Assembly: GCA_015664885.1 (NCBI GenBank)
Contig: DQPL01000098.1
Coordinates: 1-64,000, forward strand
Length of the DNA: 64,000 nt
Source: Gemmatimonadota bacterium
GTDB lineage: Bacteria; Gemmatimonadota; Gemmatimonadetes; Longimicrobiales; Gaopeijiaceae
Reading direction: 5' to 3'
Positions 1 through 56,689 of this stretch are shown here, one piece after another. Positions within the stretch are counted from its first letter, which is position 1. Each line of letters starts with the position of its first letter. The position numbers were made by a program, and so were the translations under genes. The notes under the pieces were generated by a model. That model saw only the letters and a program-made list of their open reading frames with translations, searched no databases and was not told where the DNA came from.

Positions 1-1
1 C

Positions 2-1030
2 CACCCGCACCCCCACGGAGACGAGCGGACGATCGTCTACTACAACGAGGAGTACCGGCCAAACTTCTTCGCGCACATGGCGCTGCTGAACCTCGTCTCG
101 CTGGTGACGCCGTTTTACGTCGGCTACGAAGGGACGGCTTATCGCGAGCTGTACCCGACGAACGCCGCGGTGCTCGAGCACGTGCACGAGCAGGGCGGGA
201 TCGGTGGCTACGTCCACCCATTCGGGCTGAGCCACCGCGCGCCCGACCCCGCAGGACCGAGCGGAGCACGCGAGCTGCCCGTCGACGCTATCCTCGGTCT
301 GGCGGACTTCGTCGACGTCGCCTGCATCTGGAGCGACGAGCTCGGGACAGCCGAGATCTGGTACCGGCTCCTCAACACCGGCTCGAGGATCCCGGCTACG
401 GCAGGCACCGATGCCATGAGCGACATCTGGAGGCACCCGGCGGTCGGGACGACGCGCTCATACGTCTACACCGGCAGCGAGACGCTCGACTACGACGAGT
501 GGGCCGACGCGATGGCGGCCGGCCGGGCGTTCGTGACCAGCGGACCAATCCTCACTCTCGACGTCGAGGGGCGGGGCATGGGCGAAGAGCTGCCGGTCTC
601 GGGAGGCGAGACGGTCTCCGTCGCCGTCACGGCCCGGTCGCTGTTCGAGATGCACACGCTCGAGATCGTCCAGAACGGGGAGATCACGCACACGTTCGAA
701 GCCACCGGAGACGGCAAGTCGTTTGACGTGGAGGTCGAGGTCCCTATCGACAGCAGCGTGTGGATCGCGGCGCGCACGCTCGGCCCGCCGCAGCACGGCG
801 CCATGGACAGCTATCTGTTCGCGCACACGAACCCAGTGTTCGTGATCGCCGACGGCGAGCCGATCCGCTCGAGCGAGGACGCGGCGTTCTTCGTGGCCTG
901 GATCGAGGAGACGCTGAGCGATCTCCGGAGGATGGATCGCTGGGACGACCCGGCCCACAGGGACGAAGTCCTCGCCACGTTCGAGGAAGCGCTCCGGCTC
1001 TACCAGGATCAGGCCGGGGGGGGTCGATAG
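2..1030 (+). CDS. CehA/McbA-like PHP-type metallohydrolase, 5' end cut by window edge
   Basis: The frame is open from base 2, upstream of the first ATG at 77, so the true start lies outside the window. The visible part carries an HPHPHGDE stretch near the edge, a GGIGGYVHPFG segment and an AGTDAMSDIWRHP segment. These look like metal-binding histidine and aspartate loops of the PHP-like CehA/McbA hydrolases. After about residue 180 comes a beta-rich tail (VEGRGMGEELPVSGGETVSV) typical of the accessory C-terminal domain in secreted members. Known members hydrolyse carbamate or phosphoester-like bonds, but the substrate cannot be read from sequence. It ends with TAG at 1028-1030 and the following 365 bases hold no convincing intact gene. 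The family call is from motif style only. Confidence 0.6.
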   Translation, partial: HPHPHGDERTIVYYNEEYRPNFFAHMALLNLVSLVTPFYVGYEGTAYRELYPTNAAVLEHVHEQGGIGGYVHPFGLSHRAPDPAGPSGARELPVDAILGLADFVDVACIWSDELGTAEIWYRLLNTGSRIPATAGTDAMSDIWRHPAVGTTRSYVYTGSETLDYDEWADAMAAGRAFVTSGPILTLDVEGRGMGEELPVSGGETVSVAVTARSLFEMHTLEIVQNGEITHTFEATGDGKSFDVEVEVPIDSSVWIAARTLGPPQHGAMDSYLFAHTNPVFVIADGEPIRSSEDAAFFVAWIEETLSDLRRMDRWDDPAHRDEVLATFEEALRLYQDQAGGGR

Positions 1031-1084
1031 GCCTACCGCTCCGGAGGAGGCCCGAAGCCGGAGCGCGAAGCGCGTCAATCCAAG

Positions 1085-1395: not shown

Positions 1396-2430
1396 TCAGG
1401 ACACTGCGGCCCGCACAACGACCGTGACCTCCACGTCCGAGAATAATCCTCCATCGTCCGCCCGACCCCGGAGCACATAAGTCCCCGGCTGAGTAAACGT
1501 GACCTCGCTCACCCACCGTCCGTCCTCCGGAAGCTCAGGGGCCTCCCACACGCGCGCCCACGGTGAGTTGGCGAAGGGCCGCGTGTCTTCCCACGGCTTG
1601 ATCTGGGGAGGGTCGAACTCGACGCCCTCCTCGGGGCCTCGGTAGATGAACCAAGTGAAGTGCAGCCCAGACCTCTTGCTCACCGTTACGGTCGCCGTCG
1701 ACGACCGGAGGGCGCTCGCCAAGAGCTGCCTGGGCGTGGGCCCCGCGTCCTCTTCCTCTTCTTCTTCTGGCGCTGCTGCTTCGTCTTCTTCCTGAGCGTC
1801 CTCTTCGTCGTCTTCGTCGTCCGAACTGCCCCCCCCGGAGAGCACGAGCGACGATCGATTCGGCTGGCCGTCGTCGATGACGATCGCCTCGAGCCTGAGC
1901 GTCTCGCCCGCGCGCACGCTCCGCTCCATCCCCCCTTGCAACTCGACTGCAGGCGGCACGTTCGCCCGGATCTCAGGGTTGCTGCTTCCCGCCCCCAATG
2001 CGCCGGTCTCGGACATGATCACGACGTTGTCGACGAAGAGATCTTTACGGAGTGAGCCATACGCTTTGAACTCATGGCCGTTCGCACGCAGCGTCCACAC
2101 GAGCTCGTCGTCTTCCTCGAAGTCGGACGGAATCCGCACCTTGAAGACGAAGCGGTTGCGTCGCGGAAGGAAGTGCGTGGGCTGGCCCTGGTCCGCGGTA
2201 CCCGGCGAGAACTGGTTGTCGGCTCCGATTGGAACGTCGAGCAGCTGCTCCCAGTTCTGGTTCATGTAGCCGAAGAGCATGTCGATCGAGCCGTCCTCGT
2301 TCTGCTCCCAGCCCTCATAGGCCGGGTAGAGCGGCTGGCCCTTCGTATACGTGTGCCTCTGAGCCTCGGCCCCGTCAGGGATCGAGATCGAGACGGCCGC
2401 GAGCAGCAGGACCGCAAACCGCCCTATCAT
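1396..2430 (-). CDS. Secreted protein of unknown function with acidic linker, partner of the cytochrome/monooxygenase gene
   Basis: The 344-residue product has a Sec signal peptide (MIGRFAVLLLAAVSISI, then AEAQ at about residue 24). No enzyme family is recognised. The N-terminal third (to about residue 130) and the C-terminal third (from about 250) look beta-rich; the C-terminal GTYVLRGRADDGGLFSDVEV pattern resembles an immunoglobulin/PKD-like fold. Between them, at about residues 203-228, lies an almost purely acidic Asp/Glu run. The start codon overlaps the stop of the upstream heme/copper gene by ATGA at 2427-2430, so the two are probably translated together and act in one periplasmic or surface process. 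A calcium- or metal-binding role for the acidic run is possible but unsupported. Confidence 0.6.
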   Translation of the reverse strand: MIGRFAVLLLAAVSISIPDGAEAQRHTYTKGQPLYPAYEGWEQNEDGSIDMLFGYMNQNWEQLLDVPIGADNQFSPGTADQGQPTHFLPRRNRFVFKVRIPSDFEEDDELVWTLRANGHEFKAYGSLRKDLFVDNVVIMSETGALGAGSSNPEIRANVPPAVELQGGMERSVRAGETLRLEAIVIDDGQPNRSSLVLSGGGSSDDEDDEEDAQEEDEAAAPEEEEEEDAGPTPRQLLASALRSSTATVTVSKRSGLHFTWFIYRGPEEGVEFDPPQIKPWEDTRPFANSPWARVWEAPELPEDGRWVSEVTFTQPGTYVLRGRADDGGLFSDVEVTVVVRAAVS

Positions 2431-4274
2431 CCACCCTCCTTGGTCGCCGTTCCAGAAAGGGAGAACCCGGCCAGGTCCACTACTGCGTTCATGGTGTTAG
2501 CCTCGTCCCCTGATGTCAGCGTGATGGTGGCAGGTATGGACGAGCCAAACGCGGTCAGCGTGAATTTCAGAACGAGGCCATCATCGGACCGGCGAATGCT
2601 CGACGCGTCTTCTGGCGGGCTCGTCGGCGGGTTGACCGACGCAGCGAGCATCCCGTCGTCTCCCTCCGAGAACTCGAGGCCGATGTTGAACGTGCCCTGG
2701 GGGCTCTCCAGGGGCAGGGTCCACGTTCCCAGGAACTCCGCAGCGGCGCTCGCCTCGACGTCCGATACCACGATCGGCTCGCCGCCCTCCTCTTCCACGA
2801 TGTCCGGCAGCAACGGGATCTCGGCCATGCAGAGCGGACATCCGATCACGTGATCGTTCACGTCGAGGTCGAGTACTTCGCGTCGCTTCGCCATCTCGGC
2901 TACGAACTCCTCGTCGCTCAGCCTCAATTGGATGCCCAGGTCGATGAACATGTTCGCGACCGAGCGATTGCCCGAGCCCTGCCAGTTCCTGGTATCGGGG
3001 ACGTTGGAGTTGGACTCGGTGTTGTTCATGTAGCCCGTGATGTGCAGTACCGTCCCCTTCGGCAGCAGCGGCTCGTAGTTCTCCGCGAAGGAGTACGTGC
3101 GCACCCAGTTATGGTCGTAGCCCACGCAGCTCAGCGTCTCGATATGTTGTTTCCAGATCGCCTCCAGGCACATGCGGTCGCCCGGCGCGTGCAGGTGCGG
3201 CTCGAACGCGATGATCTTGAGGTTGTCCTCGAGCACGTTGTACGCGTGCAGTTCCTGGCCGTTCTGGTCCGGAGCGATCGAGATATTGAGCCCGTCGCCG
3301 ATGCCCAAGCGCGCGGTCTCGTACTTCGGCACGTAGTCCTCTGGGAAGAACTCGAAGCCGAACTCGAGGTGGGCGCGCGTATCCGTCCCATTGGAGTGGA
3401 GGTGCGCAGACTCGGAGGTGATCTGCGAGCCCGCCTTCAGCAACCGGCCCGCCTCCTCGCTGAAGAAGTCGGGATTGCGGCCCACCTCGTGCACGGGCCA
3501 GCCCGTGGCCTCGAGCAGATGCGCACCGGGCACGCGCGAGATGTAGATCAGATGGTGGAAGACGTACCGGGCACCCACGGTTTCCCTTCCCGAGCCCTCC
3601 GAGGGTAAGTCGTTGACCTCGCGTATCTCCACTGCTTTCACATACCGGTCATGCTCGAGGGGGATGTCGATCGGCTCGATCTCGCCCCACCAATCTGCGA
3701 CTCCACCCTCGACGAAGACCTCATTCGATTTCACGACCAGGTCCGGCTCGATCCGCCAGCCGTCTTCACTCACCGGATCCAGCTCCACCTTCAGGTCCGC
3801 CGGGTCGCCCTCCGGCGCGCCGTTGTTGGCCCAGGCCTGGATCTTCGCGAGCTCCTCGTCCGTCAGCGACGGGTCCTGCTTGTAGTGCTGGATGCCGATG
3901 TCCTTCTCGACATACCACGGCGGCATCGCGCCCATGCGGTCCCGGATCGCCGTCTTGTTGCGGATCCTCGGGGCGTACCGTCTAACTTCCTGATAGTTGG
4001 TGAAAGCCATGGGGCCCGCCCCGCCCGCGCGGTGGCACTGCACGCAGCTCCGTGCCAGAATCGGCGCGATGTCCTTCGTGAACGTCACCGCACTGGGATC
4101 GATGCCGAAGTCGGCGGCCGCGAGGATGTGCGGCTCGTGCAGCTCACCCGGCGTGTGGGACTGCGCCGTCAATCCCGTCGGTGCGCACAGAAGTGCGGTA
4201 GCCGCGACGGCGACGCCAATCGCAGTGATCGCCCCGGGAATGAGTCCGTCGAAAGCTTGGCGATGGATCGTCAT
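2427..4274 (-). CDS. Secreted heme c plus copper type II monooxygenase-like protein
   Basis: The 615-residue product has an N-terminal hydrophobic export segment ending near residue 38. A single-heme cytochrome c domain follows: CVQCH at residues 77-81 and a MPPW segment at 117-120 that could supply the distal Met ligand. The central and later part has HLHSNG near residue 290 and EPHLHAPGD near residue 360. These histidine clusters are typical of the copper-binding PHM/DBH-like monooxygenase fold (ascorbate-dependent monooxygenase family). A final beta-rich domain of about 100 residues begins around 515 (GTWTLPLE). The fusion suggests electrons are delivered to a copper site by the heme domain, outside the cytoplasm. 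Substrate unknown. It is coupled by ATGA to the acidic secreted protein downstream. Confidence 0.7.
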   Translation of the reverse strand: MTIHRQAFDGLIPGAITAIGVAVAATALLCAPTGLTAQSHTPGELHEPHILAAADFGIDPSAVTFTKDIAPILARSCVQCHRAGGAGPMAFTNYQEVRRYAPRIRNKTAIRDRMGAMPPWYVEKDIGIQHYKQDPSLTDEELAKIQAWANNGAPEGDPADLKVELDPVSEDGWRIEPDLVVKSNEVFVEGGVADWWGEIEPIDIPLEHDRYVKAVEIREVNDLPSEGSGRETVGARYVFHHLIYISRVPGAHLLEATGWPVHEVGRNPDFFSEEAGRLLKAGSQITSESAHLHSNGTDTRAHLEFGFEFFPEDYVPKYETARLGIGDGLNISIAPDQNGQELHAYNVLEDNLKIIAFEPHLHAPGDRMCLEAIWKQHIETLSCVGYDHNWVRTYSFAENYEPLLPKGTVLHITGYMNNTESNSNVPDTRNWQGSGNRSVANMFIDLGIQLRLSDEEFVAEMAKRREVLDLDVNDHVIGCPLCMAEIPLLPDIVEEEGGEPIVVSDVEASAAAEFLGTWTLPLESPQGTFNIGLEFSEGDDGMLAASVNPPTSPPEDASSIRRSDDGLVLKFTLTAFGSSIPATITLTSGDEANTMNAVVDLAGFSLSGTATKEGG

Positions 4275-4419
4275 GGGACGATTCCCCCCACTGAAGAGAA
4301 GTCTTGAACCATCAGCGAATGTACCTCAGGGTATGGTTGGCCGCACGCGAGCACGGTGGGAGCTGCCGGTGCAGGCGGGCCGCCAGGCGTCGTGCGACCC
4401 AGACCACGCCCCAAACTGC

Positions 4420-4512
4420 GCCAAGAACTGCGCCGACGCCCACCGACGCTGGCCGACGCAACTGACGCAAGAACCGAGCATTTCCGACGCTGGCCGACGC
4501 CCACCGACGCCA
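4420..4512. repeat. Imperfect CCGACGC-type short tandem repeat patch
   Basis: The plus strand holds at least six copies of CCGACGC spaced by roughly ten bases, with flanking variants CTGACGC and AACTGCGCC. Segments such as CCGACGCTGGCCGACGC appear twice, arranged around a central ACCGAGCATTT. The patch is noncoding in any convincing frame. It directly abuts the broken end of a proline tRNA half (4522-4560). It could be an insertion scar, a slipped-replication product or part of a repetitive intergenic element. Bases 4275-4419 show nothing else recognisable. Confidence 0.6.
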
Positions 4513-4521
4513 AAAAGTGGG

Positions 4522-4560
4522 TCCCAAAGTAGGTGCGCTACCGGACTGCGCCACGCCATG
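4522..4560 (-). pseudogene. 5' half of tRNA-Pro(UGG), truncated after the anticodon loop
   Basis: On the minus strand from 4560 the sequence reads as a tRNA: a 7-base acceptor strand CATGGCG, TG, D stem GCGC, D loop AGTCCGGTA, GCGC, A, anticodon stem CCTAC and loop TTTGGGA. This gives anticodon TGG (proline). The expected stem partner GTAGG and T arm are missing; instead the sequence becomes CCCACTTTTTGG and enters the GACGC repeat patch. The acceptor strand also has no 3' partner in the following 200 bases. A near-consensus TATAAT box lies nine bases upstream. This is either a tRNA gene broken by a rearrangement or a transcribed tRNA-like leader. Confidence 0.7.
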
Positions 4561-4569
4561 TAAACTGTT

Positions 4570-4575
4570 ATTATA
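4570..4575 (-). promoter_or_regulatory. TATAAT -10 box upstream of the tRNA-Pro half
   Basis: The minus strand reads TATAAT at 4575-4570, in an AT-rich island that stands out in this GC-rich window. Only nine bases separate it from the first base of the tRNA half, the right distance for a tRNA promoter. No good -35 hexamer is visible 16-18 bases further upstream. Nothing further was recognised between 4576 and 4775. Confidence 0.5.
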
Positions 4576-4775
4576 CAATATCTTACACCGATTTACTCCA
4601 AATGGGTGAACCCGAACTGTGCCAACTCTAACTTGCCCTGCCTGCCCGAGCGTATGGGTTGTAGCTGGTTGGCTGATGCAGACCCTGGGAAGACGCGCTC
4701 GCGACCGTTGGGCTACGGGCTTGGGACGCCGACCGTGAGAAGACACACTGCCGGGCTTAGCCGAGCCCGCCACCG

Positions 4776-6257
4776 TTAACGCCCAGCACCAGCCAACGAC
4801 TTCCGACCGGGCGCTCGCACCTCGGCCCCTTCGCGCCCGGTCAAGCGGTCGCCGAGCGTGGCGCGCGCGACTTCGGCGATCTCATCGAGCCTTCGCACCA
4901 CGTCGGGGTGGAGGTCGGACACATCGGTCGTCTCGCCGATATCGTTCTCGAGATCGTAGAGCGCGGTCGGCACGGTCGGTTGGGCGTAGGGTCCAGGAAG
5001 GCCGTCCATGCCTGGTTCGACACCGACGTAGGAGCGGGTGCGGTGCTCGAAGACGCGCTTCCACTTTCCCTCCCGGACGCCGCGCAGCTCGGCAGCGTAG
5101 TAGAACCAGAAGACGTTCCTGGGATTCGCGTCCGGCTGCCCCTCAAGCAGGGCAAGGATATTCACGCCGTCGATCGGTTGCGGTGGTAATGCCGCGCCGG
5201 TGATGGCCGCCAGGGTGGGCAGGACGTCTAGCGTGGACGCCATGCGCTCGCACACCGCTGCGGGCGGGATACGGCCCGGCCACCGCATGATCGCCGGCAC
5301 GCGAGGGCCACCCTCGAAGGCCGTTCCTTTGCCCTCGCGAAGGGGGCCGGTGGAACCGGCGTGGTTCCCGAAGTTGAGCCAGGGACCGTTGTCACTGGTG
5401 AAGATCACGAGAGTGTCCTCGGCCAGACCGTTCCTGTCCAGCGCCGCGAGGACCTGTCCCACCGACCAGTCGATCTCCTCGATGACGTCCCCGTACATGC
5501 CCTGCTCACTGTGCCCCCGGTACTTCTCCGAGACCCCGAGCGGCACGTGCGGCATCGAGTGGGCCAAGTAGAGGAAGAACGGGGACTCTGCGTTCCGATC
5601 GATGAAGTCGAGCGCGCGCTCGGTGTACCTCGTGGTGAGTTGGTCCTGATCCGCGAGCTCGTCGACGATCTCGAGCACCTCATTTCCCTCGATGAGCGGG
5701 AGCGGTGGCCACCGGAGCTTGTTGCCGCTGGTTGCGGGCGTTCCGTCGTAGTCGACGGGCCACATGTCGTTCGAATACGGCAGGCCCAGGTACTGGTCGA
5801 AGCCCTGCTGCAGCGGCAGAAACTGTGGGGCGTCCCCGAGATGCCATTTCCCGAACGCCCCGGTCGCGTATCCGACGCCACGCAACAGGTCTGCGATTGT
5901 GATTTCCTCGGGGTTGAGCCCGACCTGCGCTCCGGGGGTGAGCGCGCCCCTGATCGAGACCCGAGGGGCATAACAGCCGGTGAGCAGCGAGGCTCGCGAA
6001 GCGGAGCACACGGCCTCGGACGCATAGAAGTCCGTGAAGCGCATGCCTTGGGCGGCCAAGCCATCAAGGTGGGGCGTGGTGAAGCCCTCGGCGCCGTACA
6101 CGCCCACGTCGGCGTAGCCCTGATCGTCCGTGAAGATCAGTACGACGTTCGGGGAGCGCCTGGCCACCCCCTCGCACGCCGCGAGCCAACCGGGGGTGCC
6201 GAGGCAGAGACCAGCGAGCCCTGTTCGCTGCAGAAACTCTCGTCGCGTAGGTGTCAC
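4776..6257 (-). CDS. Tat-exported arylsulfatase lipoprotein (cysteine-type, formylglycine-dependent)
   Basis: This is an arylsulfatase A-type sulfatase of about 493 residues. The core motif CSASR near residue 84 is the Cys-type C-x-A/P-S-R site whose cysteine is oxidised to formylglycine. The early VVLIFTDDQGY segment supplies the calcium-binding Asp pair, and TSDNGPW and GKWHLGD are further family signatures. The start is placed at GTG 6257 because TPTRREFLQ there begins a twin-arginine signal peptide ending in a lipobox LAAC. A longer frame from ATG 6323 lacks such logic and would leave only 17 bases to the divergent gene. The maturase lies immediately divergent at 6341, so a shared promoter region and matched function are likely. 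Sulfated substrate unknown; sulfated glycans are typical. Confidence 0.9.
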   Translation of the reverse strand: MTPTRREFLQRTGLAGLCLGTPGWLAACEGVARRSPNVVLIFTDDQGYADVGVYGAEGFTTPHLDGLAAQGMRFTDFYASEAVCSASRASLLTGCYAPRVSIRGALTPGAQVGLNPEEITIADLLRGVGYATGAFGKWHLGDAPQFLPLQQGFDQYLGLPYSNDMWPVDYDGTPATSGNKLRWPPLPLIEGNEVLEIVDELADQDQLTTRYTERALDFIDRNAESPFFLYLAHSMPHVPLGVSEKYRGHSEQGMYGDVIEEIDWSVGQVLAALDRNGLAEDTLVIFTSDNGPWLNFGNHAGSTGPLREGKGTAFEGGPRVPAIMRWPGRIPPAAVCERMASTLDVLPTLAAITGAALPPQPIDGVNILALLEGQPDANPRNVFWFYYAAELRGVREGKWKRVFEHRTRSYVGVEPGMDGLPGPYAQPTVPTALYDLENDIGETTDVSDLHPDVVRRLDEIAEVARATLGDRLTGREGAEVRAPGRKSLAGAGR

Positions 6258-6340
6258 GTCTGTGCCTCGGAAGCTGGTGCAGCAGCGATCCGCATCAGCC
6301 GAGATTCGACCGGAACCGCACATCCAAGTATAACTAGCGG

Positions 6341-7903: not shown

Positions 7904-9313
7904 CTAGCTCACGATCCTCCTATTCTGCAGCACCTTCTGCATGTACTTCTGGAAGAAGAACTTCTGGATGTCCATCATGTCGATCTCGCGGCCCTGGATG
8001 TAGGTCTGCTCGATATCGCTGGTCATATCGAGCGGGGTTCCCGTGGTGATGAGGAGCGTCGCCTGCTTGCCGGGCTCCAGTGAACCGACCATGTCGCTGA
8101 TCCCCATGAACTCGGCGGCGTTGATCGTCACGGCCTTGAGCGCTTCTTCTTCGGGTAGCCCAAAGGCCACGGCGACGCCCGCTTCCCATGGCAGTCGGTT
8201 CGTGTAGAGCGTCCCCGAGCCGCCGGAAATGGCGAACTTCACACCCGCTTCGTGGAGGCGGGCCGGCATGGAGTATGCTCCGTCGTATCCCTCGTATTGA
8301 CGGCCTGGCGCCGCCATGGTCGAGGTGATGATCAAGGGGATATCGTTGGCCACCAACCGGTCTGCCACGTGAATCGCATCCCTCCCCCCACGGATTACGA
8401 GGCGCAGTCCCTCTTCTTGTGCCCAGGTGATGGCGTCGTTGATCTGGGCCGCGCCGTCTGCTGAAACAACCACAGGAATCTCCGCGTTGATCGCGGGAAT
8501 CATGGCGATGTAGCGCGAGTCGGTCCGGGTTTGTTCACCAGCGGCGGCTGCGTCGCGATATGCGCGCGCTTCGGCGAAGAAATTCTTGAGCTTCTCCACC
8601 TGCTCGGCATAGGTGGGCGGCGGGCCCTGCGGCGGGCCCCCGCGCCCTTGTCCGAAGCCGCGGCCCCTGCCCCGCCGGGGGTTGGGATTCGGCCAGTTCA
8701 CGTTCAAGGCCGCCGCCGACTTCATCGACATTTCTTCCCAATCCCACCCCTCGAGGCTCATTGCCGAGGACATGCCGGAGATGAGGCCGCCCCCCGGTGT
8801 GGTGAGGGTCACGAGCACGCCGGCGGATCGGGAGGTGCCGATGTGGCGGCTCTCCGCATTGACTGCGATCTCGGCTCGAATGTTGGGGTTGAAGTCGCCC
8901 AACTCGTTGACGTCACTCGAGACGTCCACGGCGCCGATCTCGCTGATCCCGACTGTGCTGTAGGCGTCGATGAGGCCGGGGTAGATGTGTTTGCCGGAGA
9001 CGTCCACCACGCGGGCCCCCGCGGGAATCTCCACGTCGGTGCCGACGGCGATGATCACCCCGTTCTCGAACAAGATGGTGCCGTTTTCGATCACACCGTT
9101 GGTCACGGTGTGGATGGTGGCCCCTCGTAGCGCCACCGGTTCGGACTGGGGCGGGACGGTCATGCGCACTTGTGCGCTCACCGAAGTCGGCGACAACAGA
9201 GGGGCGGCCGCAGCTGCGATCGCTACGGCTAGCGTAAGGGCGGACACACCGCCGGCCCGGGACAGATAGCCCGTCATAACTCCTCGCTTCGTCATGGTCG
9301 TGGTCGTAGTCAT
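7904..9313 (-). CDS. Secreted amidohydrolase-family protein lacking the usual metal ligands
   Basis: The product is about 469 residues. ATG 9313 is used; a TTG two codons earlier overlaps the upstream stop. A threonine-rich start ([11 protein letters not shown]) leads into a signal peptide ending at SVSAQ. The fold signature is clear: an N-terminal beta-sandwich ([21 protein letters not shown]), [16 protein letters not shown] where the HxH metal pair normally sits, and the C-terminal [14 protein letters not shown] and [10 protein letters not shown] motifs. The HxH is replaced by AYS, and the later Asp loop reads ISGGSGT. It may therefore be a non-catalytic partner of the tandem amidohydrolase just upstream, with which it is translationally linked. 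A Gly/Arg/Pro-rich insertion sits near residue 215. Confidence 0.75.
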
Positions 9314-9315
9314 GG

Positions 9316-12300
9316 TCAATTCCTCCCGGGCCGGCGGCGCCTGCCCCTGTCCTCGTCCTCGTCGTCGTTCTCCCCGACGGAGAGGATGGCTTGTATTAGC
9401 TGGGTGCGCTCCCGATCGATCTGCACGCGCATGGCTGCATCCTCCTCGAGGGAGAAGTAACGTCGGCCGTCCACCCAGGTCTGCTCGGCCCGAGTGAACT
9501 GAGACAGCGGGTTGCCGCTCCAGATCACGAAGTCGCCGTCCTTGCCTGCCTCGAGCGAGCCCACGCGGGCGTCGATGGCTACGGCCTTCGCGGACCCGTT
9601 GGTCACCGTCGAAAGCGCCTGCTCCGGCGTGAGGCCGGTGCGCAGCAGTTTGCCCGCCTCCCAGTTCATGCGGCTGGCGATCTCGTTGTTGTCAGAGTGG
9701 AGCGACGTCACCACGCCCGCTTCGATCAGAATGCGAGCGTTGTACACCGTGGCGTCGTACGCCTCGAGCTTGAACGCGCCCCAGTCACTCCACACGACTG
9801 CGGCCACGCCAGAGGCGGCCAGCTCGGGCGCGATCTTGTAGGCCTCGACCCCGTGCTGCAGGGTCTGCACCCGGAAGCCGAACTCCTCTGCCAGGCGGAC
9901 AAGGGCCAGGAACTCGTCGGCGCGGTAGCCGTGAGACGAGATCAGCAACTCCTGGTTCAGGATGTCGAGGATCGCCTCCATGCGCAGGTCGCGGCGGGGG
10001 GGGATGCCCTCGCCGTTGGCCTCCCAGCGCTGCCACTCCCGCTCGTAATCGCGGGCTGCCAAGAAGTGGTCGCGGATGATCTCCTGCGTCCCCATACGGG
10101 TGTCCGGGTACCGTCCCTGACGCCGCTTGGGGTTCTCCCCCAACGCGAACTTCACCGTCCGGGGCGCGCCTTCGAGCTTGAGGTCCTCGGGCAGGGAGCC
10201 CCAACGCATCTTCACGAAGACGTTTTCTCCTCCGATGGGGTTTGCCGAGCCGTGCTTGATGTGAGCGGTCGTGAGCCCGCCGGCGAGTTGGCGGTACATC
10301 CAGATGTTGTTGTGCGTGACGACATCGCCCATCTGCACTTCGGGAACGATGGCAAAGCCACTTTCGTTGACCGAACTGACCCCGGAATGGATGTGGGGGT
10401 CGATGAGCCCAGGTGTCACGTGCTTGCCGGTAGCGTCGATCTCTATCGCCCCTCTGGGCGCGTCGAGATCAGGACCCACCGCCACGATCGTTCCGGCCTG
10501 GATCAAGAGATCGGCATTCTCCATCAGCCCCAAAGGCCCCTGGCTCCATACGGTGGCGTTACGCACCACCACGGCAGCGGGCTGCTCGGGGATGGCGCTC
10601 ACCCCGTACTCCATCATGGGTCGAATGAACGGGAGGTCGATCTCGGGGACGTTCATAGCTACCGTGCCCCGAGTGGCTCCCTCGAACGCTTCTGTGCGGG
10701 ACCCGCGGAACGACGGGTTCGCGCCGTTGGGGAGGGACGTCCACCCGTAGAACTCCTCACCCCGTACCGAACCTGCCAGGAGGGCGACTCCTTCGTATCC
10801 CAGGTCCTCACCATCGAAGCGCACCTCGATACGGCCGGTCTCGGCCACGACCTCGGCCGAGGCCAGGTCGATGCTGGCGCCATCCGGCCCCGCGACATCG
10901 ATGGACCCGCGCAGGCGGTTCAGCGGCCCCTCGAGACGGAGTTCCGCCTCGAAGCCCCACTCGTCGTCGGACGTGATGAGCCAGGTTCCTCGAGGGTCGA
11001 TCTCGGGCGGGCGCGTGACCTCGTAGGCCCGCCCATGCACCCAGACGTCACGGACGGTGGCCTCTTCGGTGAAGAGGTCGCCTTCGCTCACGACGAGGTT
11101 GGCTACCCTGCCCTCCTCAATCGTGCCGTGGGTGTTCTCGAGGCCCAACAATGCTGCTGGCGTAGTGGTAAGCGCCGCCAGGGCGTCTGATGTGGACAGC
11201 CCCCGCGCCACCGCGATGCGCAGGTTGGGCAGGAACTCATTCAGCGACGAAAGCCCGCTGGAAGTGATCGCGAAGCGGATGCCGGCATCCGCTAGCTGCG
11301 CGGGGCTCGTGGGCGCCAGATACCAATCGCGCAGGTCGGCCAAACTGGCGTTCAGCGCCGACTCCGGGTCATCGACGTCGGGGGCGTCGGAGAAGCTCAG
11401 GGGTATGATGAGCGGGTCGGTGCGTCCCCGGAGCACATCGATAATGCGGTACTCTTCACCGCTTCCCCGGTACCATGCGTCCACGCCGTACTCCGCGGCA
11501 AGCTTGTAGGCCCGCAAGTACTCCTCCTCGCTGCCGGTCTCGAAGACGATCGGTTGATTGCCCTGCACCGCGTCCGCGAGGGCCGCCAACGCCTCGCTGG
11601 TCTCGGGCGGCAGGAATGCGCGGCCACTGTCCTCGTAGGCGCCCCACGCCCTCATGTACCAGTCGGTATCCATGAAGGTCTGCTTGATGAGAGCAATGGT
11701 CCCCATGGACGAGTTGGGGTAGGCCCCACCCAAACTGAAGGAGCGCTGGAATCCCACAGCCTGGACCAGGTCGGAGCGGAGCACTCGGTCCCGGACCCCG
11801 GCGTCGCCCAGGTTCACGACCGAAGCTGTGCCTCGGAAGATGCCCTCCGTGGGCACGACCAGCGCCGTTCCAAATCCTTGAGAGCGGAGCGCCGCCCGGC
11901 GCTCGGGGTCGTCCTGGAGGTTCCTCGTAGTGCTGAACCAAGCCCGAACCTGTGGATTCCAGTGGGTCGGCCCCACGTCGCCGCCTTCGGGGACTGCGTC
12001 CATGCCCAGGTCCGCATGTGCATCGATGAACCCCGGATAGATCGTGTGGCCTGTCAGGTCCCAGACGCGTGCCCCAGCCGGGGCCTCCGTGTTGCGACCA
12101 ACGCTCTGGATGAGCCCGTTCCGGATTACAACAGTGGCGTCGTCCAAAACCTGCCCCGGAGCCGTCACAACCCGGGCACCCACTAGGGCGTGGAAGCCGG
12201 TGCCATTGTCCCGGATGCCCGTGACGGGCTGGGTCCGGGTCGCCTGTTGAGCTGCGACTCCGCTAGTAAGCAGGAGGCTGAGCCCCAGGAAGGAGAGGAT

Positions 12301-12321
12301 TGCTCTCACGACGTCCCCCAT
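9316..12321 (-). CDS. Secreted tandem amidohydrolase fusion (two domains)
   Basis: The product is about 1000 residues. A start near ATG 12321 gives a good signal peptide (VRAILSFLGLSLLLTSG, cleavage after VAAQ); no clear ribosome site decides between this and nearby GTG/ATG codons. Two amidohydrolase domains follow one another. The first has PGFIDAHADLGMD, with an altered metal pair. The second, beginning around residue 590, has an intact GLIDPHIHSG pair plus SSHGYRADE, LQHGVEAY and LHSDNNE, consistent with an active binuclear metal site in the imidazolonepropionase-like branch. A beta-rich insert of about 150 residues separates them. It probably acts outside the cytoplasm on a peptide- or amide-like substrate. 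The single-domain paralogue at 7904-9313 follows with overlapping ends. Confidence 0.8.
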   Translation of the reverse strand: MGDVVRAILSFLGLSLLLTSGVAAQQATRTQPVTGIRDNGTGFHALVGARVVTAPGQVLDDATVVIRNGLIQSVGRNTEAPAGARVWDLTGHTIYPGFIDAHADLGMDAVPEGGDVGPTHWNPQVRAWFSTTRNLQDDPERRAALRSQGFGTALVVPTEGIFRGTASVVNLGDAGVRDRVLRSDLVQAVGFQRSFSLGGAYPNSSMGTIALIKQTFMDTDWYMRAWGAYEDSGRAFLPPETSEALAALADAVQGNQPIVFETGSEEEYLRAYKLAAEYGVDAWYRGSGEEYRIIDVLRGRTDPLIIPLSFSDAPDVDDPESALNASLADLRDWYLAPTSPAQLADAGIRFAITSSGLSSLNEFLPNLRIAVARGLSTSDALAALTTTPAALLGLENTHGTIEEGRVANLVVSEGDLFTEEATVRDVWVHGRAYEVTRPPEIDPRGTWLITSDDEWGFEAELRLEGPLNRLRGSIDVAGPDGASIDLASAEVVAETGRIEVRFDGEDLGYEGVALLAGSVRGEEFYGWTSLPNGANPSFRGSRTEAFEGATRGTVAMNVPEIDLPFIRPMMEYGVSAIPEQPAAVVVRNATVWSQGPLGLMENADLLIQAGTIVAVGPDLDAPRGAIEIDATGKHVTPGLIDPHIHSGVSSVNESGFAIVPEVQMGDVVTHNNIWMYRQLAGGLTTAHIKHGSANPIGGENVFVKMRWGSLPEDLKLEGAPRTVKFALGENPKRRQGRYPDTRMGTQEIIRDHFLAARDYEREWQRWEANGEGIPPRRDLRMEAILDILNQELLISSHGYRADEFLALVRLAEEFGFRVQTLQHGVEAYKIAPELAASGVAAVVWSDWGAFKLEAYDATVYNARILIEAGVVTSLHSDNNEIASRMNWEAGKLLRTGLTPEQALSTVTNGSAKAVAIDARVGSLEAGKDGDFVIWSGNPLSQFTRAEQTWVDGRRYFSLEEDAAMRVQIDRERTQLIQAILSVGENDDEDEDRGRRRRPGRN

Positions 12322-12425
12322 AAGGAAATAAGATGAACCACCGCGCATCTCCCGCCGGCAGGGACCCGCGGGGGACGGAAAGTACGAAAAGTAATCTTGA
12401 GGGCTACGCTCCCGGCGCCGTGCGG

Positions 12426-12575
12426 TCAAATGGTCCGGCTCGCCCAGATCTCGATCTCAGCCGCCAGCCGTCGCAACGTGCCCAGAGTCGTCGCGGCTTC
12501 GCTCGCACCGAGTTCACGCTCAATGCGGTAGCGTCCCTCTAGGGCAGCGTTCAGGCGGGTGGTGGCTTCACTCAT
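12426..12575 (-). pseudogene. Stub of a Ser/Thr protein kinase N-terminus (49 residues)
   Basis: A short minus-strand frame runs from ATG 12575 to TGA 12426. Its first half reads MSEATTRLNAALEG and then RYRIERELGA, the hallmark opening of bacterial Hanks-type kinases just before the glycine-rich loop. The expected GGMATVYLA is replaced by SEAATTLGTLRRLAAEIEIW and the frame stops, so the ATP-binding loop and everything after are missing. It is either a kinase gene lost by deletion or a tiny independent gene. It lies between the amidohydrolase pair and rlpA; nothing else was seen in 12430-12642. Confidence 0.55.
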
Positions 12576-12642
12576 GTGCTCAAGATGCGGCGCGGAGCAG
12601 CGAACCGCGAGCAGGCGGGCTCTCGGCCCGCCCCTCCCCTCC

Positions 12643-13215
12643 CTAGTTGGCCCTTCGCCTCTGATACGGCTCCAACGCCCTCACGCGCACCGCCGCAGTC
12701 CCGGTCCCCACCATGCCCAGCTTGACCGCCGCGGTATAGCTCACGTCGATGATACGCCGGTCCGGGTCGTGGAACGGGCCGCGGTCGGTCACTCTAAGCA
12801 CGACGCTGCGACCGTTCGCGAGATTGGTCACCTCGACGTAGCTCGGAAGCGGCAATGTGCGGTGCGCGGCGGTCATCCCGTACATGTCGTAGGTCTCGCC
12901 GCTACTCGTCCGCCGCCCGTGGAACGGTTCACCGTACCAGGAGGCGACGCCGCGCTCGTCGTACCCCTCTGAGGTATCGAGCACAGTGTAGACGCCGCCC
13001 GACTGTTCGTACTGGGCCATATTGCCGGTACGGCTGGGGGGTTCCGCCCGTGGGATTGCGTCCGGAATTGCGTCTACGGCGGCAACGTCCTCGGCGGTTA
13101 CGCCCCCGCCTGGGGGCGGCACGCTGGGGCCAGGCGCCCTGCCACCACCGATCATGGTGCACGAGGTCGCGGCCCACACGGTGGCCGCGAGCGCTAATCG
13201 CTGAGTCCTGTCCAT
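12643..13215 (-). CDS. rlpA: RlpA-like septal ring lipoprotein (double-psi beta-barrel)
   Basis: The 190-residue lipoprotein has the lipobox ATSC near residue 19. The C-terminal half is a canonical RlpA domain: GVASWYGEPFHGRRTSSGE, AHRTLPLPS, VTNLANGRSV, VTDRGPF and RIIDVS. RlpA proteins are lytic transglycosylases or peptidoglycan-binding proteins acting at the division septum or in denuded glycan remodelling. There is no SPOR domain, so it is a short form. The start overlaps the end of the CYTH gene by 22 bases, placing it last in the long LPS/glycan gene train. Confidence 0.9.
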   Translation of the reverse strand: MDRTQRLALAATVWAATSCTMIGGGRAPGPSVPPPGGGVTAEDVAAVDAIPDAIPRAEPPSRTGNMAQYEQSGGVYTVLDTSEGYDERGVASWYGEPFHGRRTSSGETYDMYGMTAAHRTLPLPSYVEVTNLANGRSVVLRVTDRGPFHDPDRRIIDVSYTAAVKLGMVGTGTAAVRVRALEPYQRRRAN

Positions 13216-26570: not shown

Positions 26571-27541
26571 TACACCACTCCTGCGCGCATGAGATCGTGC
26601 AGATGCACGATTCCGACGAGCCGCCCGTCATCGTCCTCAACCGGCAATGCCATGATGCCGTGCGCCTCCATGCGGTGGGCGGCGGCAGACCCCAACTCCT
26701 CGGGCCGTGCGGTTTTCGCTTCTCGAGTCATGATTTCTCCGATCGGATGCTCTAGGAAGTCCGGGTCACGTTCCATGAGCCTTGTGAGATCTCCCGCCGT
26801 GAGCACGCCGATGATGCGGCGGTCCCCGTCCACGACCGGCACGGTGCCACGCATTTCGGCCAACGGCGCTATGGAGTCCTTCATCGTCTCGGACTCGCCC
26901 AGCGAGGGGTATTCGTCTGCTATCATGACATCTGCTACACGGACGGAGAGCTTGGTTCCCAGTGTTCCACCCGGATGCAACGCGGCGAAGTCGTCCTCCT
27001 GGAAGCCCTTGAGTTGTAAGACGACCATCGCCAACGCGTCGCCCAACGCGAGCGTCGCGGTCGTGGAGGAAGTGGGTGCCAGATCCATAGGGCATGCCTC
27101 CTCGGCTACCGAGCAGTCGAGTACGACGGTTGCGTCGCTGGCGAGCGTGGATTCGGGCCGGCCAGTGATGGCGATGACGGAAACGCCGAGACGGGCCAGG
27201 TACCCGGTCAGCCTCTCGAGCTCCGAGCCCTCACCGGACTTGGAAATCAAAATCGCGACGTCGTCGCGGCCCACGATGCCCAGGTCTCCGTGCAGCGCTT
27301 CGACCGCGTGCAGGAACGTTGCCGAGGTTCCGGTCGAGGTAAGAGTCGCGGCGATCTTGCGCCCAATGTGCCCACTTTTGCCGACTCCACACACCACGAT
27401 CCGACCCATAGCGTCGGCGACGATCCGGCACGCACGAACAAATTCCTCATCGATGCGATGCTCGAGCGCCGCAACCGATGCGGCCTCGATGCGGAGGACA
27501 CGACGCCCCTCCGTGATCAGCGCCTCGGACGAGGGCGTCAC
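26570..27541 (-). CDS. kdsD: Arabinose-5-phosphate isomerase (KpsF/GutQ type)
   Basis: The 323-residue protein has an N-terminal SIS sugar-isomerase domain (VVCGVGKSGHIGRKIAATL, HGDLGIVGRDDVAILISKSG) and two C-terminal CBS domains from about residue 200 (VADVMI, VPVVDGDRRIIGVLTAGDL, IMTREAKT, MALPVEDDDGRLVGIVHLHD). It converts ribulose 5-phosphate to arabinose 5-phosphate, the first committed step of Kdo synthesis. Kdo-8-P phosphatase and Kdo-8-P synthase lie immediately upstream with overlapping ends, giving the pathway in one unit. Confidence 0.95.
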   Translation of the reverse strand: MTPSSEALITEGRRVLRIEAASVAALEHRIDEEFVRACRIVADAMGRIVVCGVGKSGHIGRKIAATLTSTGTSATFLHAVEALHGDLGIVGRDDVAILISKSGEGSELERLTGYLARLGVSVIAITGRPESTLASDATVVLDCSVAEEACPMDLAPTSSTTATLALGDALAMVVLQLKGFQEDDFAALHPGGTLGTKLSVRVADVMIADEYPSLGESETMKDSIAPLAEMRGTVPVVDGDRRIIGVLTAGDLTRLMERDPDFLEHPIGEIMTREAKTARPEELGSAAAHRMEAHGIMALPVEDDDGRLVGIVHLHDLMRAGVV

Positions 27542-48290: not shown

Positions 48291-48293
48291 TAG

Positions 48294-48647
48294 TGGAGGC
48301 GGCGGGAGTCGAACCCGCGTCCGCACTTGGGTCCAGCGGAATCTCTACGTGCGTAGATCACTGGGTTATCTCACCTCGGGCGGTCAGTGATCAACCGACC
48401 CCGCGGCCAGCCGCCTAAAAATCTCGTCCCCTGGCCCGGCGGCGAAACCGGGGGACCAGCTCGACTTATCGTCGCCTCAAAGACCGCCTCGAGCGGGCGA
48501 CCAGGGAGACGGGCACGTAAGAAAGCTTACGCAGCCAGCGCCAGGTTGTTGTTGGCAGCTAAAAAGTTTCCCGAAGATTAGCGAGGATCAGGACCTCGGC
48601 ACGCTACTCCACGTTCACCAAACACGTCGAAACCGGGACGCCCCCGA
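48294..48647 (-). ncRNA. ssrA: Transfer-messenger RNA
   Basis: The minus strand shows a complete tmRNA of about 354 bases. The 5' acceptor strand GGGGGCG at 48647-48641 pairs with CGCCTCC at the 3' end, and the T arm reads GGGTTCGACTCCC. The resume/tag frame at 48559-48527 encodes AANNNLALAA and TAA (resume alanine GCT or GCC). The encoded 3' end is A followed by CTA, so CCA is not encoded and must be added. It rescues stalled ribosomes with SmpB and tags the peptide for proteolysis. A strong terminator follows. Confidence 0.97.
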
Positions 48648-55510: not shown

Positions 55511-56689
55511 TCAGGCTCCGAGCGCCGTCCTGAGGTCGTCGACGCAGTCGTCAATCTCCCACGGAAAGAACTGCACCTCTGGGCCACCCGCGTCCGGTAC
55601 TCCGATCTCGGGGGCGCGGCCGAAATGCCCGTACGCGGCAGTGGCCGTGAAGATCGGCGATCTCAGCCCCAGTCGGTCGATGATCGCTGCGGGTTTGAAG
55701 TCGAAGACTTCAGAGATGGCGCGGGCCAACTCGGCCTCGGACGCGTCGCTGGTGCCGAACGTGTGCACCCGGATCGACACGGGATCGGCGACGCCAATGG
55801 CATACGCGAGCTGTATCTCGCAGCGCCGAGCCAGTTTCGCGGCCACGACGTTCTTGGCCGCCCATCGGGAGGCATAGGCCGCGGAGCGGTCGACCTTGGT
55901 GGCGTCCTTGCCGGAGAATGCACCGCCGCCGTGCCGTCCGACGCCGCCGTACGTATCGACTATGATTTTCCGGCCCGTGAGGCCCGCGTCTCCGTGCGGT
56001 CCACCGATCACAAAACGGCCGGTCGGGTTGATGTGCATAATGCAGTCGTCGTCGAGCATCTCGTCCGGCAGGACCGGCCTCACCACCTTGCTGATGATCT
56101 GCTCAACGAGGTCGGCCTGGACCACGGACTCGTCGTGCTGCGCGCTCACGACCACGGTGTGAATGCGGACGGGCTTGTCGCCCTCATACTCGACCGTGAC
56201 CTGCGACTTGCCGTCCGGTCGGAGCCAGGGCAGCTCCCCGTTGCGCCGCATTCGCGCCAACTGCCGCGTGATCGCGTGCGCGTACTGAAGGGTCGCCGGC
56301 ATCAACTGAGGCGTCTCGTCACACGCGAACCCGAACATCATTCCCTGGTCGCCCGCGCCGCCCGTATCTACGCCCATGGCGATATCCGGGGACTGCCGGT
56401 CGAGGTTGGTGAGCACCGCGCAAGTATTGGAGTCGATGCCGAAGTTCGAGTTCGTATAACCGATTCTGTGCAGCGTGCCGCGCACGACGTCGGGCACGTG
56501 CACGTAGCAGTCGGTGGTGACCTCGCCGGCCACCATCGCGAGTCCGGTAGTCACGAGGGTTTCGCACGCCACCCGCGACCTCGGGTCTTGAACCAGGAGA
56601 TGGTCGAGTACGGCGTCGGAGATCTGGTCTGCGATCTTGTCCGGGTGGCCTTCGGTAACCGACTCGGATGTGAAGAGCGTGCGGCTCAA
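55511..56689 (-). CDS. metK: S-adenosylmethionine synthetase
   Basis: The 392-residue enzyme makes S-adenosylmethionine from methionine and ATP. Signatures are [52 protein letters not shown] and [19 protein letters not shown]. The length and order of motifs are normal. It lies downstream of ptsI by about 60 bases on the same strand. Bases 55440-55510 after its stop contain no clear terminator. Confidence 0.98.

Follow-up and report, generated by a model that had tools for sequence, protein, structure and literature searches.

A 5′ half of a tRNA-Pro(UGG) gene lies on the minus strand of the window, the 64,000-nucleotide stretch of Gemmatimonadota DNA analysed here, where it is joined to a patch of GCGTCGG repeats. 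We conclude that this half is very probably an attL-type scar, namely the 5′ end of a tRNA-Pro(UGG) gene that was displaced by site-specific integration at the anticodon loop. Beside the half itself, our analysis found an intact partner gene, the same junction in relatives, a half-then-intact order on four of five contigs, one filled/empty pair of sites, a clade of integrases on the 5′ side of the gene, and a common arm motif.

In the mechanism that we propose, a tyrosine integrase would recombine the anticodon loop TTTGGGA, situated between the palindromic stem strands CCTGC and GCAGG, with the attP of the element, in which an arm motif, an upstream region, a tRNA 5′ half, the loop and the GCGTCGG patch would follow one another. 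The old 5′ half would end up joined to the element's patch, forming an attL that corresponds to the junction in the window, and the element's upstream region and 5′ half would join the host's 3′ half at the far end, where an intact tRNA would reform. Integration on the 5′ side thus requires that the element carry its own tRNA front end. Repeated integration, each time into the newly reformed gene, would build tandem rows of half-plus-patch units.

The half tRNA-Pro(UGG) gene and its repeat patch

Read on the minus strand, the locus consists of TATAAT (4575-4570), nine bases, 39 bases of tRNA-Pro(UGG) (4560-4522) and the GCGTCGG patch, which runs to about 4412. This confirms what the first-pass annotation described, apart from small corrections to its acceptor and promoter; the parts are listed here with the two candidate arm sites:

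4616..4625, minus strand: TTGGCACAGT, candidate arm-type site for an integrase, 68 nt upstream of the 36-nt half
4570..4575, minus strand: TATAAT, −10-like hexamer in the stranded upstream region of the tRNA, with no good −35
4522..4560, minus strand: 5′ half of tRNA-Pro(UGG), from acceptor start to anticodon loop end, 36/39 identical to the intact copy
4522..4528, minus strand: TTTGGGA, anticodon loop, putative 7-nt crossover region, end of tRNA similarity
4412..4521, minus strand: GCGTCGG repeat patch (Y), putative integrase arm region of the inserted element, ~110 nt
4415..4424, minus strand: TTGGCGCAGT, by sequence a one-mismatch copy of the arm motif, closing the patch

What had been called a promoter amounts to a −10 hexamer only, since no full sigma-70-type −35/−10 pair occurs in 4380-4800. 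As a tRNA end fragment requires, the half has a near-identical intact counterpart in its own genome (36 of 39 bases), at G000:C71:526-600 on the minus strand; the first-pass annotation had proposed looking for such a gene. The longest matching run, 4557-4522, is identical to this gene at 35 of 36 positions (E = 1.7e-10, own-genome search), and the half has a local score of 34 within the window, with 15 for the runner-up place. The half is real, not a random wreck. Its D arm and anticodon loop match the intact gene exactly, in line with the earlier description, which had also called the acceptor correct; there, bases 2 and 3 are A and T as opposed to G and G in the intact gene, and the anticodon stem carries one change, G31A. 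With three substitutions in 39 bases the scar is decayed, and it is for this reason probably inert now.

The tRNA match ends at the end of the anticodon loop, and the repeat patch follows directly, just as the first reading had it. An intact 3′ half nearby, which that reading would have counted against a broken gene, was found by none of four approaches. ARAGORN reported no tRNA in the whole window, only a tmRNA gene (tag ANNNLALAA; 48291-48645, minus strand). Rfam gave no match at the half/patch locus; a sub-threshold match to UCA1, a human lncRNA family, had E = 0.87 and was taken as chance. The T-arm pattern, with one mismatch allowed, had no match in the window, and the best score for a 3′ half in the adjoining 220 nt was 8, against a shuffle mean of 8.4. 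By its sequence, the intact tRNA holds a ~7-nt overlap between inverted core arms, CCTGC-TTTGGGA-GCAGG, which appears to have the layout of a tyrosine recombinase attachment site, and the exact crossover would fall within TTTGGGA.

The patch contains direct repeats of 17-18 nt at 4432-4510. An alignment of 11 chosen long units yields a common consensus of repeated GCGTCGG and a closing GACGCAGTTTTTGGCACAGTTT, and the patch can be aligned over ~110 nt across genera. It is shorter in some of the compared units, and in G019 no more than its start resembles the patches of other units. We take the patch to be a likely integrase arm region, in which the repeats would serve as integrase binding sites. 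Pieces of patch also occur with no recognisable half, at G000:C31, C74 and C126, G014:C18 (two pieces), G039:C101 and G006:C51; all of these were left out of the 25 units compared below.

The first-pass annotation had offered, as one of its two readings, a tRNA-like transcript with a new role. A transcribed tRNA-half RNA acting, for example, in regulation or defence could account for the retained −10 hexamer and D arm, and in 18 of 25 units the first called frame after the half shares its strand, a weak bias given a heuristic frame caller and related units, with read-through into cargo conceivable. Folding, however, speaks against this reading: half plus patch folds no better than shuffles (z = 0.27 for the window and −0.81 for L133; two units, RNA-energy folds). 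No full promoter was found, and both the acceptor and the anticodon stem of the window copy are mutated. The proposal of a new role is unsupported, and we consider it very improbable.

Recurrence in relatives and position relative to intact genes

The first-pass annotation had suggested comparing this locus in relatives, with absence there as a sign of a chance match; the half and patch are present there. A search of 98 related genomes with the intergenic stretch returned intact tRNA-Pro genes as well as half/patch joins like that of the window. Across the family, a search with a G046 unit gave matches in 22 of 121 genomes (E ≤ 1e-4), although in about half of these 22 the match covers only the last 22 nt of the half, as any intact tRNA-Pro would give. 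A genome-contig scan with the half-plus-patch pattern returned at least two matches, both in Gemmatimonadota MAGs. The pattern was present at 18 of 170 loci, many of them overlapping, and in 3 of 395 genomes of the phylum, one being the window's own; viral contigs gave no match.

We compared 25 units from nine genomes. Among these, the same junction occurs in eight other genomes, weakly in G019 and G113, and in most of the units tRNA similarity ends at the end of the anticodon loop or 1-2 nt later. An ordinary pseudogene, that is, a second tRNA-Pro(UGG) gene whose 3′ half was deleted and beside which repeats grew by slippage, would be compatible with the three substitutions in the half and with the failure to find a 3′ half nearby. 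Such a history is disfavoured by the recurrence at one breakpoint, and it does not sit well with a patch that is alignable across genera; we therefore give it hardly any credence.

Seven of the units are incomplete: in five of 25 the left part of the half is missing, and in another two the start is degraded. The five left-truncated units (L032 5811 −, L033 5634 +, L134 8964 −, L136 4656 − and L139 6442 −) retain no more than roughly the final 15-22 nt of the half, next to unrelated DNA on the left, and the L139 unit has changes within its remaining tRNA-half bases as well. All seven may be insertions at secondary, non-tRNA sites, or they may have decayed. The five left-truncated units would also suit a dispersed repeat, as would the patch pieces with no half: half and patch would form a small non-autonomous unit moved by transposition, containing tRNA sequence by chance, and rows of units would stem from repeated transposition or duplication. 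We regard a dispersed repeat as improbable, since it does not predict that similarity ends at the anticodon loop, nor three further observations described below, namely the same-strand order of half and intact gene, the G019/G040 pair, and the 5′-side integrase clade with the same arm motif.

If integration took place at the anticodon loop, the displaced half should lie upstream of the restored gene. On four of the five contigs that hold both, the half indeed lies upstream of an intact tRNA-Pro(UGG) on the same strand:

G001:C15: half at 27152, intact gene at 56168, 29 kb apart, half upstream, same strand
G030:C1: half upstream of intact gene, same strand, 2.2 kb
G019:C59: half upstream of intact gene, same strand, 2.7 kb
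G123:C203: half upstream of intact gene, same strand, 2.1 kb

The exception is G117:C29, where a stretch of N separates the intact gene from a half located 445 bp downstream, and the same 29 nt precede both (L140 1177 − and 732 −). This reversed order could be a scaffold error or a real exception. Together with the recurrence of half and patch in relatives and the intact copy in the genome, the order on these contigs supports the other reading of the first-pass annotation, a tRNA gene broken by insertion. In the window genome, the half is on C8 and the intact gene on C71, separate contigs that are joined in no assembly, so that the join between them is a matter of inference. The contig G074:C51 ends exactly at the loop, as expected for a duplicated 5′ half in a short-read assembly.

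One pair of genomes presents a filled and an empty site. In G019, 55 bp separate the half from the end of a small gene (Pfam GBBH-like_N) ahead of it, and an intact tRNA comes 2.7 kb further on; the G040 homologue of this gene lies 69 bp before an intact tRNA-Pro. Homologues lie 116-201 bp before intact tRNA-Pro in G021 and G016 and, in G010, 104 bp before a tRNA-Pro that breaks off with the contig 9 nt after the loop. The marker gene is present in 12 of 17 genomes searched. Among these 12, tRNA sequence comes right after it only in G019 (half) and G040 (intact), and no tRNA-like sequence was found within 600 nt after it in the other ten; other relatives have different genes before tRNA-Pro. 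For these reasons G019/G040 is the sole clean filled/empty pair.

The half in the window is surrounded by the following genes, and this region was compared with G001:

77..1030, plus strand: C-terminal part of a larger protein, with a longer frame in G001
1396..2430, minus strand: 344-aa protein, no Pfam match, putative cargo
2427..4274, minus strand: 615-aa protein, weak cytochrome c (CBB3) match below the Pfam cut-off, putative cargo
4776..6323, minus strand: sulfatase, the gene immediately upstream of the half
7904..12429, minus strand: two adjacent genes

Half and patch are 78% identical over 196 bp between the window and G001:C15. The genes directly after the patch differ: the 615-aa frame, which is the first gene past the patch and on the half's strand, and the 344-aa protein occupy this place in the window, as against an unrelated 691-aa frame in G001. 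Farther downstream, window positions 1-1032 match G001:C15:30546-29515 with 97.0% identity over 1032 bp, a segment likewise situated downstream of the corresponding half; this block is 2.4 kb from the half in G001 and 3.5 kb from it in the window. The DNA of the gene pair at 7904-12429 is 89% identical to a G001 pair whose end is 286 bp away from the intact tRNA-Pro(UGG), on its upstream side. Blocks are thus common to the two genomes and reordered, because this pair lies upstream of the half in the window and before the intact tRNA in G001. Between the window genome, where it is found on contig C118, and G001, the chromosomal flank carrying the upstream marker gene is 86% identical, as compared with 97% for the block downstream of the half, which suggests a recent transfer of that block. 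In addition, a 5.3-kb stretch that ends in tRNA-Pro(UGG) is 98.3% identical between G001 and G042, which belong to different genera (L038 versus L031); it may reflect transfer or bin contamination.

The 5′-side integrase clade and the putative arm motif

In G042:C99 and G006:C43, an intact tRNA-Pro(UGG) has a divergent PF00589 integrase immediately upstream, and there is a third in G074:C28. We searched 196 relatives with int41; 25 had a match at E ≤ 1e-20, giving 42 match rows, and 30 loci were examined. A tRNA lies within 700 bp at 20 of these 30 loci. Three of the 20 are on the 5′ side, all of them at tRNA-Pro(UGG), and these are the three closest in sequence to int41; the other 17 are on the 3′ side of other tRNAs. 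The three 5′-side integrases form one clade with support of 100/100 in a tree of 25 of the 30 rows, the five omitted rows being shorter than 300 aa and including L083, which comes nearest to the clade from outside it (56.5%, 3′ side of tRNA-Ile). One integrase family that is mostly 3′-sided (17 of 20 tRNA-linked loci) and has a single 5′-sided clade makes the change of polarity testable by comparison. A broken fourth member may be represented by a 99-aa frame with int41 similarity 5′ of tRNA-Pro in G056:C7. No integrase-bearing element with its own half-plus-patch end was found. On viral contigs, 14 pattern stretches of the int41-type integrase were seen, none confirmed by integrase alignment. 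The window's own genome holds a broken int41 relative at L075 (G000:C77), with a stop in the matched stretch; this locus has no tRNA and no arm motif.

The 10-nt sequence TTGGCACAGT is present in the three 5′-side loci, 67-88 nt before the tRNA match, and absent from the other 27 of 30. As the pattern TTGG[CT]A[CG]AGT, the motif occurs at −67 to −70 before tRNA-Pro in L031, L038, L041, L043 and both L133 sites, at −88 in L118, at −69 before both G123:C203 sites, and at −68 in the window. The window is thus linked to the 5′-side integrase clade by a motif common to both, not by a common contig, and this clade is, on the evidence of the motif, the likely one to act on these sites. Because the motif lies 68 nt upstream of it, the half in the window was itself probably element-borne and later split by another insertion. 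The intact gene at G000:C71 has an upstream region with no arm motif.

Other elements may use the same gene. In L035 and L048, another repeated motif, GTGCCCTA..CGTGCCCTAATG, stands before intact tRNA-Pro and could perhaps represent the arms of another 5′-side integrase. L035 also has a second copy of the last bases of tRNA-Pro downstream of the gene (7725 − and downstream), and in L048, L049 and L121 mutually related opposite-strand frames of 284-391 aa have their ends 117-173 bp past the first base of the tRNA match; the gene thus seems to be used from its 3′ side as well.

Tandem rows, putative cargo and comparison with known systems

Two contigs hold several units in a row. On G123:C56, six units in one direction occupy 14 kb (L135 positions 1193, 5986, 10040, 11005, 11988 and 15308) at a spacing of 0.97-4.8 kb; one of them has degraded first bases and one has a patch lacking the arm motif. 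G046:C2 carries a row of three. The DNA between units contains one to a few genes, which encode a YaeQ protein and a beta-lactamase-fold protein in G046, and an AbiEii-like nucleotidyltransferase, protein kinases, a DUF5916 protein and a P-type ATPase in G123. At G123:C157, a unit whose half is short has genes for toxin-like BrnT and DUF5615 proteins upstream of it.

In the rows examined, neither an int41-type frame (tblastn) nor a PF00589 match was found between units. On the window's contig there is likewise no PF00589 match, and hence no integrase inside an island there. One PF00589 match lies on G019:C59, some 2 kb past the tRNA-Pro on its 3′ side. A second integrase clade was sought in the genomes with rows (G123, G140, G117 and G113) and rejected: of their 16 PF00589 matches, none falls inside a row and none has int41 similarity or an arm motif in the locus. 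The integrase-less units could either have been moved in trans or be decayed islands.

Mobilization in trans would allow a broader reading, in which the 5′-side tRNA-Pro(UGG) integrase moves cassettes that carry one or a few genes and no integrase, and these are stacked behind one tRNA gene, each insertion leaving a live tRNA promoter and 5′ half to drive the cargo. Such a tRNA-anchored cassette system is possible, and we hold it to be rather doubtful. If it existed, an essential tRNA gene would be both landing site and expression platform for cassettes. The rows at one tRNA gene, with no integrase found between their units, suggest a gene-capture locus of a kind that would be missed by searches that expect one integrase per island, and half-tRNA stubs make it easy to look for such loci in fragmented metagenome assemblies. 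As far as our searches go, the combination of 5′ halves, an arm patch and integrase-less rows at tRNA-Pro(UGG) is new; a search of the open-licence literature found nothing on rows of 5′-half tRNA-Pro in Gemmatimonadota.

Integron arrays are rows of short units, each with one to a few genes and a repeated site; their attC sites fold as single strands, and they rely on an IntI-type integrase and an attI site. The rows described here are similar in their short units, their repeated sites of ~110-170 nt and an AbiEii-like gene between units. They differ in that the site contains a tRNA half, no integrase platform was seen, and no attC-like fold was found in the two units folded (z = 0.27 and −0.81, RNA-energy folds).

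The first-pass annotation had noted that elements usually preserve the 3′ part of a tRNA gene. This is right as a rule: the Islander report counts 3760 of 3919 islands with a 3′ tDNA fragment and 159 with a 5′ fragment (PMC4383910). Islands with a 5′ fragment are, by these counts, known but rare, and the window locus looks like one of the exceptions. The 5′-fragment islands described there have the displaced 5′ fragment upstream of the restored tRNA in the same orientation, an order seen here on four of five contigs of relatives, and they share the anticodon loop as attachment site with the mechanism proposed here (PMC4383910). The locus in the window works like such an island and falls outside the strict Islander definition, because no integrase gene was found on its contig. 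Islander lists 125 tandems of two or more islands and 4 of three or more, with an integrase required in each member, whereas the present rows have up to six units and no integrase was found between them (PMC4383910).

Use of a tRNA 5′ half is also reported for archaeal integrases of the pTN3 type, whose attB is the 5′ half of a tRNA gene and whose recombinant tRNA is expressed from the integrase promoter, that is, from an element-borne one (PMC8371274). The same source states that such use is seldom met in bacteria. The pTN3 integrases belong to an archaeal plasmid/virus system, and the passages on them describe no tandem short cassettes (PMC8371274). Alteromonas fGI1 resembles the present loci in that a conserved tRNA is the landing site for serial gene cassettes (PMC4119200), and Methylophilaceae fGI-2 in that recurring tRNA fragments mark the island (PMC10872708). 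The fragments named in the passages on these additive flexible genomic islands are, however, the last bases of the tRNA, at its 3′ end, whereas here the 5′ half is duplicated (PMC4119200, PMC10872708). Tycheposons, named in PMC10872708, are similar as tRNA-linked cargo islands with a tyrosine recombinase. Finally, two genes after the integrase in L043, a frame at 11177-12658 on the plus strand has weak matches to the terminase large subunit, and the tRNA-Pro element at that locus may be a prophage or a phage satellite.
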